Source: Gaiellaceae bacterium
GTDB lineage: Bacteria; Actinomycetota; Thermoleophilia; Gaiellales; Gaiellaceae
Direction: 5' to 3'
Assembly (NCBI GenBank): GCA_026002995.1
Contig: BPGK01000001.1
Span: forward strand, 1,798,001 to 1,862,000
Length of the DNA stretch: 64,000 bases
Positions 52,782-54,502 of the stretch are shown here, piece by piece. Below the pieces are notes generated by a model. It made no database searches and had not been told where the DNA came from. It worked only from the letters and a program-made list of their open reading frames with translations. Each line of letters begins with the position of its first letter. The stretch's first letter is position 1. A program made the translations under genes and the position numbers.

Positions 52782-53027
52782 CTACACCGAGATGCCGGCG
52801 GCCTTCATCAGCCGCTGGACGGGCTCCGTCGGTTGCGCGCCCTTCGCCAGCCAGTCGCGAACCTTCGCCTCGTCGAGGTCGATGGTGGAGGGATCCGTCT
52901 GCGGGTTGTAGCGCCCGACGATCTCGATGAACCTGCCGTCCCGCGGCGAGCGCGAGTCGGCGACGACGACGCGGTAGATCGGGTTCTTCTTCGACCCGAC
53001 GCGCGTCAACCTGATCTTCACTGCCAT
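52782..53027 (-). CDS. rpsP: 30S ribosomal protein S16
   Basis: Predicted 81-residue protein beginning [19 protein letters not shown] and containing [20 protein letters not shown], both hallmarks of S16; the C-terminal [17 protein letters not shown] is also typical. The ATG has an AAAGG-type ribosome binding site. The reading frame extends upstream into a repeat region, which is not coding. Confidence 0.97.
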
Positions 53028-53060
53028 TCGAGGTGCCTTTCGTTCGGGGGTCTTCGTTCG

Positions 53061-53210
53061 GGGGGTCAGGTCCTGCATGTTGCACGACGCACCGGGGCCC
53101 GCGCGCAACAGGGGGTCCGCGACAGGGGGTCAGGTCTCTCCTGTTGCACGCTGGCGTGCAACAGGAGAGACCTGACCCCCTCCCGCGGCACTGACCCCTT
53201 CCCGCTGCAC
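53061..53210. repeat. Cluster of REP-like GGGGTCAGGTC repeats between ffh and rpsP
   Basis: At least four related elements. Copy 1 (53061-53086) and copy 2 (53125-53150) share GGGGGTCAGGTC at one end and GTTGCACG at the other but differ in the six middle bases. Copy 3 (53155-53180) is the exact inverse of copy 2. A shortened inverse copy (53190-53210) abuts the ffh stop codon. A ten-base direct repeat ACAGGGGGTC also occurs at 53108 and 53122. The pattern recalls REP/RAYT-associated repeats; no transposase is nearby. Confidence 0.7.
53124..53181. repeat. Perfect 28-bp inverted repeat with 2-base loop
   Basis: Arms 53124-53151 and 53154-53181 are exact reverse complements, separated only by TG. 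The RNA would form a very stable hairpin after ffh and before rpsP, so it may stop or attenuate transcription or protect the RNA end. There is no U-tract on the minus strand after it. Confidence 0.85.
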
Positions 53211-54502
53211 TAGCCCAGCCTGCCCTTCCCGAGCTGCTTCATCATCTTCGCCATCTGCTTGCGGGCGGCCATGAGCTTGTTCACCTCGTCGAGCGAGGTG
53301 CCGCTCCCCGCTGCAATCCGCCGCCGACGTTGCATCGTGATGATGTGCGGCATCCGCCGCTCCTGCGGCGTCATCGAGAGGATGATCGCCTCGACGCGCG
53401 CGAGCTGCCGCTCGTCCACGTCCATCCCCTGCAGCTGCCTGCCGAGCCCGGGGATCATCTTCACGATCCCCTGCAACGGCCCCATGCGCCGAAGCATCTT
53501 GGAGCTCGCGAGGAAGTCGTCGAACGTGAACTCGCCGGCGCGCAGGCGCCGCTCGAGCTCGGCCTGCTCGTCGGCCTCGACGGCAGCTTCCGCCTTCTCG
53601 ATCAACGTGAGCACGTCGCCCATCCCGAGGATGCGCGAGGCCATCCGGTCGGGATGGAAGACCTCGAGCTGATCGAGCTTCTCGCCGGTCGATGCGAGCT
53701 TCACCGGCTTGCCGGTGACCGCTTTCACCGAGAGCGCCGCGCCACCACGCGCGTCGCCATCGAGCTTGGTGAGAACGACGCCGTCGAAAGCGACTCGCTC
53801 CTGGAACGCGAGCGCGACGTTGACGGCCTCTTGGCCCGTCATCGCGTCGAGGACGAGGAGGACGTTCAGCGGCTTCGTCGCTGCAGCCACCCGCTCGAGC
53901 TCGTCCATGAGCGCCTCGTCCACGTGCAGCCTGCCGGCGGTGTCGAGGATCGCGACGTCGTACCCCTCGCGGCGCGCCGCGTCGACCCCTGCCCGAGCGG
54001 CCGCCACCGGATCGACGCGGTCGAGCGCATAGACGGGAACCTGGATCTGCCGACCGAGCTGCTCGAGCTGCTCGACGGCGGCCGGACGCTGCAGGTCGCA
54101 CGCGACGAGGGCCGGCCGCTTCCCCTCTCGCCGCAGGTGGAGCGCGAGCTTTGCCGCTGCGGTCGTCTTGCCCGACCCCTGGAGGCCAGCGAGCAGGATC
54201 ACCGTCGGAGGCTTCCCGAAGACGAGCCGAGAGTCGCCGGCGCCGAGCAGGCGCGTCAGCTCCTCGTGGACGATCTTCACGACCTGCTGGGCGGGCGAGA
54301 GGCTCCGAGAGACGTCCTCGCCGAGCGCGCGCTCCTTGACGGTGGCGGTGAACTCCCTCGCGACCTCGACGTTCACGTCCGCCTCGAGGAGCGCGAGGCG
54401 GATCTCGCGCATCGCCTTCGAGACCGTCTCCTCGTCGAGCCGTCCTTTGCCGCGGAGGCCGCCGAGGGCAGCCTGGAGCCTGTCGGACAGGGTGTCGAAC
54501 AC
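53210..54502 (-). CDS. ffh: Signal recognition particle protein Ffh
   Basis: Predicted 430-residue GTPase binding 4.5S RNA and signal peptides. N domain (about 1-90), G domain with P-loop LLAGLQGSGKTTAAAKLALH (about 102-121), DTAGRLHVDEALMDEL and TKLDGDARGGAALSV, and a Met-rich M domain (about 300-430) with the RNA-binding segment AGSGTSLDEVNKLMAARKQM. Length is slightly below the usual 450. The stop codon abuts a repeat cluster. Confidence 0.97.
   Translation of the reverse strand: MFDTLSDRLQAALGGLRGKGRLDEETVSKAMREIRLALLEADVNVEVAREFTATVKERALGEDVSRSLSPAQQVVKIVHEELTRLLGAGDSRLVFGKPPTVILLAGLQGSGKTTAAAKLALHLRREGKRPALVACDLQRPAAVEQLEQLGRQIQVPVYALDRVDPVAAARAGVDAARREGYDVAILDTAGRLHVDEALMDELERVAAATKPLNVLLVLDAMTGQEAVNVALAFQERVAFDGVVLTKLDGDARGGAALSVKAVTGKPVKLASTGEKLDQLEVFHPDRMASRILGMGDVLTLIEKAEAAVEADEQAELERRLRAGEFTFDDFLASSKMLRRMGPLQGIVKMIPGLGRQLQGMDVDERQLARVEAIILSMTPQERRMPHIITMQRRRRIAAGSGTSLDEVNKLMAARKQMAKMMKQLGKGRLG

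Follow-up and report, generated by a model that had tools for sequence, protein, structure and literature searches.

The repeat cluster between ffh and rpsP

What kind of repeat keeps its ends constant while its six central bases change, and why do several copies of it lie in one gap between two genes? The question arises from a window of 64,000 nucleotides (G000:C1:1798001-1862000), the whole stretch of DNA analysed, within a 2.62-Mb single-contig genome. The gap is bordered by two minus-strand genes that we take, following the first reading of the sequence, to be ffh and rpsP: ffh (53210..54502) is an open frame also predicted by our gene finder, and rpsP (52782..53027) is given here with its predicted start, its longest open frame reaching 53108. 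Three exact GGGGTCAGGTC-N6-GTTGCACG copies lie between them, an unpaired outer arm on the plus strand (53061..53086; pattern 53062-53086; core CTGCAT) followed by a plus/minus pair. The left arm of this pair (53124..53151, plus strand; pattern 53126-53150) consists of the head GGGGTCAGGTC, the core TCTCCT and the tail GTTGC, and the right arm (53154..53181, minus strand; pattern 53155-53179) has the same core. By eye, the two arms form an exact inverted repeat (53124-53151/53154-53181) of 28 nt per arm around a 2-nt loop (53152-53153); the program search for repeats returned 35-nt arms at 94% with the identical 2-nt loop. As single-stranded DNA, 53126-53179 has a computed fold of -33 kcal/mol (z -11.8).

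The 25-mer pattern with at most three mismatches matches three times in the window compared with a mean of 0.03 in 100 shuffles, which is more than chance; the repeats and the 28-bp palindrome with a 2-base loop described in the sequence-only reading are real. The constant ends and differing core that it reported hold for the two plus copies (53061-53086 and 53125-53150), which have GGGGGTCAGGTC and GTTGCACG in common around a 6-nt core that is unlike at four of six positions (CTGCAT and TCTCCT). Two partial repeats on the plus strand, CGCAACAGGGGGTC and CGCGACAGGGGGTC (53104..53131), of which the second overlaps the left hairpin arm, are probably arm remnants. A degenerate piece of head (minus strand, about 53190..53209) directly adjoins the ffh stop codon (53210-53212) and may likewise be a remnant; the outermost copy was said to end exactly at this stop, and it is this degenerate piece that does so, the last exact head ending at 53179, 30 bp from ffh.

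A genome-wide family of inverted arms

The search of the whole genome that had been proposed on the basis of these copies was positive. The 2.62 Mb contain 155 exact occurrences of the 11-nt head GGGGTCAGGTC, compared with 0 for the reversed control, and 139 matches to the 25-mer pattern (at most three mismatches), compared with 1 for the reversed pattern. All 155 heads were recovered in the stretches fetched round the listed sites; the tails of these arms read GTTGC in 110, GTTCC in 27 and neither in 18. The head, being the search string, is necessarily constant, and in the GTTGC class core positions 3-5 hold only 0.34-0.38 bits. What appeared as constant ends with a variable core is a head shared throughout, a tail that goes with the class (GTTGC or GTTCC) and, between them, a spacer under loose constraint.

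Neighbouring arms within 250 bp are ordered +- in 53 cases, -- in 25, ++ in 11 and -+ in 2: the pairs are mostly head-outwards, with extra tandem arms and some single arms as well. The arms fall into 63 clusters, located in tandem gaps (30), convergent gaps (23), divergent gaps (3) or within a predicted ORF (7), these counts being approximate as they come from a gene finder of our own, based on codon usage and trained on 29 window ORFs. For comparison, the 73 predicted genes of the window form 53 tandem, 10 convergent and 9 divergent neighbour pairs, and non-coding sequence makes up about 5% of the window. The family consists largely of inverted doublets dispersed in extragenic space (53 +- pairs; 56 of 63 clusters outside ORFs). 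One subfamily of 13 copies, each exactly 70 bp long and all with the same two unlike arms, is found as a unit at many places, although two of these copies have a long left flank in common and are not independent.

Other features accompany the family. At genome positions 561,857-561,987 there are six minus arms; five form a 24-bp tandem array that holds only part of the arm, a local amplification of half-elements. Many 70-bp copies, for example at 2,486,470 and 820,088, adjoin other dispersed palindromic repeats such as GGGCGAGGCTTGCCTCGCCC, a second family that makes these sites mosaic repeats. By eye, no common target motif appears in the flanks outside the heads, nor at the junctions with the genes discussed below as lepA, plsY and mtnA. 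Insertion hotspots were considered and set aside: three of 15 congener stretches with the repeat map to stretches of our genome that also hold an element, a count that leaves out a fourth match (L245, to a transposase region) and whose rough binomial p of 0.006 uses a guess of 2,400 gaps. Exact-string literature searches with GGGGTCAGGTC and related strings returned nothing on bacterial repeats among titles and abstract starts.

Resident Y1 transposases

The genome contains three Y1 transposase genes, which answers the check for such an enzyme suggested by the sequence-only reading. P0001, P0002 and P0003 all match Pfam Y1_Tnp above its cut-off, and the NHYH and Y-x-x-x-NP motifs are seen in the translations. 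Two of the genes are flanked by the repeats: P0002 (about 495.6 kb) by three arms of the GTTCC class and P0001 (about 1287.5 kb) by four of the GTTGC class, with GGGGTCAG present on both sides of each. P0001 and P0002 are 52% identical over 268 residues and both carry a C-terminal HTH (HTH_38 above cut-off in P0001; HTH_23 in P0002 at 23.4 bits, just below the cut-off of 24.6). A sequence search of the PDB gave no relative of P0002. P0003 (about 990 kb) has no such arms within 1.5 kb and no C-terminal HTH match in Pfam, and four hairpin patterns tried in its surroundings as TIRs of its own gave no match. The open frame of P0001 has no ATG, GTG or TTG before codon 60, the expected start codon being ATC, and the gene may be silent; as this is the transposase flanked by the majority GTTGC class, activity may have ended or rely on P0002. 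In the congener G008, two arms of unlike tail class enclose a stretch of contig C72 (L245) with 71% identity to the P0002 region. The stretch may be a decayed transposase, in a genome with no reported Y1 match.

We consider it very probable that the ffh-rpsP cluster belongs to a population of REPIN-like miniature elements found across the genome, which have paired TIRs and are spread in trans by resident Y1 transposases of the TIRYT group. Two head-outwards TIR arms would form a hairpin, on which these HUH/Y1 enzymes would act in single-stranded DNA, moving the element in trans. The transposase would read the fixed head GGGGTCAGGTC and whichever tail marks the class (GTTGC or GTTCC), the 6-nt core serving as a spacer between them; the seven arms beside the two genes are what suggests the specificity for the tail.

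We may ask whether these are instead classical REP/REPIN elements with a GTAG tag and a RAYT to move them, in line with the sequence-only reading. The layout is alike (inverted doublets, mostly extragenic, with a Y1 transposase in the genome), and the NCBIfam model REP_Tyr_transpos (cut-off 80) scores P0002 at 80.5, P0001 at 79.0 and P0003 at 64.9. However, neither GTAG nor GTGG is found at the foot of the palindrome in the arm consensus, the constant parts of the arm being GGGGTCAGGTC and GTTGC or GTTCC. The head fits instead the motif GGGGWSAS that some TIRs have in common, according to passages of Di Nocera et al. (2013; PMC3733652), and both flanked transposases have the C-terminal HTH of subclass 2.1 as described in part of Quentin et al. 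(2018; PMC6006769). Classical REPs are thus an improbable explanation. The likeness to REP/RAYT-type elements itself is well supported (155 heads, three Y1 genes, two of them repeat-flanked); it is the subgroup that was wrong, since there is no GTAG and the fit is to TIR/TIRYT.

The head beside transposases of other genomes

An alignment of four transposases of this kind was used as the query for a scan that yielded at least 80 named loci in many phyla, near relatives possibly being missing. Among the matches listed, 74 of 80 loci could be used, having 150 bp or more of sequence on each side. Looking up to 400 bp upstream and 500 bp downstream, we find an exact head beside 50 of these 74 transposases, on both sides in 27, and none near the other 24; GGGGWSAS is near the transposase in 62 of the 74 and on both sides in 32. 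The edges are approximate for loci whose match begins at 2501, where a standard end was assumed. In 20 hand-chosen genomes behind the listed loci, five have at least 20 heads (for example, 78 versus 3 in the control for a gammaproteobacterium and 57 versus 0 for an actinomycetote), two have none and several do not exceed the control.

Within the phylum of our genome, 18 of 296 genomes contain 20 or more exact heads and no fewer than five times as many as the reversed control, and five have at least 50, in a tally counted by hand from a table that includes our genome and records heads rather than verified TIR pairs. The maximum is 268 heads compared with 2 in the control, and most genomes have few. 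In a set of 61 genomes (our own and relatives), 37 have a Y1 gene and only five, our own included, the longer repeat pattern. This thin spread of the repeats among Y1-bearing relatives, the 24 transposase loci lacking a nearby head and the low counts in most of the 20 genomes weigh against our reading. Beside three relatives' Y1 genes (L103, L108 and L109) the head is unchanged but followed by another tail (GGGGTCAGGTCTTGCA...), and the flanks of some others show nothing recognisable. Shorter Y1 genes from the same order (L110, L111, L112, L119, L121 and others) have small perfect hairpins at their flanks, GGGGTCAGACCCC or GGGGACAGTCCCC, a second TIR type.

The ffh-rpsP gap in congeners

The comparison of the locus among close strains, also suggested by the first reading, shows that the element is absent from the gap in six of 10 congeners (G001, G004, G005, G006, G007 and G010). 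G008 has its own asymmetric element there, with the core TTGCAT, and the gap of G003 was not recovered. In G009 the gap holds a different inverted repeat, and in G002 about 1 kb of other DNA. A tree of ffh from nine genomes (G003 and G009 left out), with weak deep support, does not group G008 with our genome. The likeness of the outer CTGCAT arm to the G008 copy makes it possible that a newer element here overlies an older, shared one. Recent activity, another suggestion of the sequence-only reading, is supported indirectly by the perfect palindromes and the gap empty in six of 10 congeners; the lack of a normal start codon in P0001 speaks against it.

That reading also held that the hairpin may set the relative expression of ffh and rpsP, and a functional RNA or DNA element (terminator, processing or stability) kept for its role would suit both the position between two genes of the same direction and the very stable RNA fold of the locus (-113.1 kcal/mol, z -7.5). 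Yet there is no intrinsic terminator (a G+C-rich hairpin followed by a T run) in 52900-53400, the locus matches no Rfam family and the same repeats lie in 63 clusters next to unrelated genes. As the hairpin is missing from the gap in six of 10 congeners, a conserved role in ffh/rpsP expression is unlikely; we give this explanation very little weight, and judging from these comparisons the element at ffh-rpsP is most likely to be a tolerated passenger. A local duplication or chance palindrome without a mobile family is scarcely conceivable with 155 exact heads against a control of 0 and a head common to transposase flanks in other phyla, even if such events exist, as in the six-arm array at 561,857-561,987.

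Variation of the core

In the 53 +- pairs, the cores are identical in 15 of 20 pairs measuring at most 60 bp compared with three of 33 longer ones, and 19 of the 20 short pairs have at most one core mismatch. Within the GTTGC class, 11 of 15 short pairs match, compared with a permutation mean of 1.5 and a maximum of 7 in 20,000 permutations, and one of 28 long pairs matches, below the chance mean of 3.2. The 70-bp subfamily dominates the long group; without it the contrast is 11 of 15 short versus one of 10 long (p = 0.004), in a set sorted by hand that includes one pair with a GTTAC arm.

A core shared within short elements and differing between loci suggests hairpin-templated (quasipalindrome) correction, by which the arms of short-loop elements would stay identical and cores would drift between loci, not within them. 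Short-loop template switching is treated in parts of PMC8794818. Matched arms could also come from selection for pairing, compensatory changes in REPIN hairpin spacers being mentioned in parts of Bertels and Rainey (2011; PMC3116915). Unlike arms co-occur in the 70-bp subfamily, so identical cores are not needed for spread, and the evidence tentatively favours short-loop template switching over selection for arm pairing.

Start codons apparently supplied by elements

Some elements abut genes that their protein sequences mark as presumably lepA, plsY and mtnA. The native lepA start lies directly before RIRNF in seven congeners (six by script, G008 by eye), in a comparison for which G001 and G005 had no usable locus. 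In our genome (element at 1,007,414-1,007,527) and in G004 (L254, an element with an identical right junction), the element end, ATGGAAGACCTGACCCC or ATGCAAGACCTGACCCC, is followed by GCAAGA, giving MEDLTPQDRIRNF and MQDLTPQERIRNF. The element ATG is the sole in-frame ATG, GTG or TTG from the upstream stop to codon 41 in our genome; G004 has two further starts 18 and 21 nt upstream. For plsY, a short native start is seen by eye in seven congeners, whose gap contains no exact head; three further congeners had no usable locus. In our genome an arm (2,104,540-2,104,588) appears to give the plsY-like gene its start codon (MEDLTPSSLAAVLGGY), with no other ATG, GTG or TTG in frame before codon 48. 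In both cases the comparison covered ATG, GTG and TTG rather than rare start codons. In lepA and plsY, an element ATG thus seems to have taken the place of the native start codon (MEDLTP-).

Further candidates were set aside. The mtnA-like gene is not a third clean capture, as DLTP is also present in G002 and G006 without a hairpin (by eye) and may be native or an old relic; elements of unlike tail class lie in the same gap before this gene in our genome (1,368,258-1,368,416) and in G007 (L251). Aspartokinase and acyl-CoA-synthetase genes have other in-frame start codons. At ffh-rpsP itself, the outer CTGCAT arm read on the minus strand has an ATG (53078-53076) in frame with rpsP, which retains its own start.

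CAT stands at the end of the core in 12 of 155 arms. Read outwards, such arms would give ATG-NNN-GAC-CTG-ACC-CC, and insertion at the 5' edge of a gene would replace the native start and add the leader M-x-D-L-T-P. We tentatively raise the idea, which we regard as possible but rather doubtful, that the hairpins are portable translation-start cassettes and that, together with arm homogenization, the TIR population is a continuing source of new starts for housekeeping genes. If true, the cases would be lepA and plsY here, lepA in a congener and perhaps mtnA. The first two seem to show, by direct comparison between congeners, how a mobile hairpin can take over the start codon of a conserved gene.

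Relation to known systems

The names TIRtron and TIRYT were given to Y1 transposases whose flanks are long inverted repeats and not GTAG REPs; passages of the same work describe TIR families as moderately abundant and, in some genomes, present as dimers and clusters (Di Nocera et al., 2013; PMC3733652). According to parts of Quentin et al. (2018; PMC6006769), 20 of 26 TIRYTs belong to TnpA-Y1 subclass 2.1, with C-terminal HTH-like domains, and those parts report no REP-like sequences for this subclass. Since GGGGTCAG fits GGGGWSAS and P0001 and P0002 have an HTH, we file the repeats, from these sequence features, as a TIRtron-type population working like REPINs and not as GTAG REPs, a sister group of REP/RAYT, and P0001 and P0002 probably belong to TnpA-Y1 subclass 2.1. 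The kind of element is known but little studied. What our genome adds is a large dispersed repeat population tied to HTH-bearing Y1 transposases, a kind left without REP-like partners in the passages cited (Quentin et al., 2018; PMC6006769), and, in GGGGTCAGGTC, an 11-nt signature for finding such populations.

The likeness to TIRtrons/TIRYTs thus lies in a Y1 transposase with a C-terminal HTH and inverted-repeat flanks, in the published head motif and in TIR dimers and clusters, as far as these are covered in parts of PMC3733652 and PMC6006769; here, by contrast, the exact heads number 155 and mostly stand in inverted pairs, the tails fall into two classes and some genes appear to have received their start codons from elements. 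With the REPIN/RAYT system, as presented in passages of PMC3116915, the elements share inverted doublets, conserved ends, a non-autonomous nature and a link to resident Y1 transposases, whereas here there is no GTAG tag, the transposase has an HTH and the variable part lies inside each arm, between constant head and tail. Finally, the Rickettsia RPE and REP-supplied stop codons, mentioned in passages of PMC3733652, are also short palindromic repeats within genes or at gene ends that have become part of a gene, N-termini included; here the ATG of the element is the only in-frame ATG, GTG or TTG before codons 41 (lepA) and 48 (plsY).
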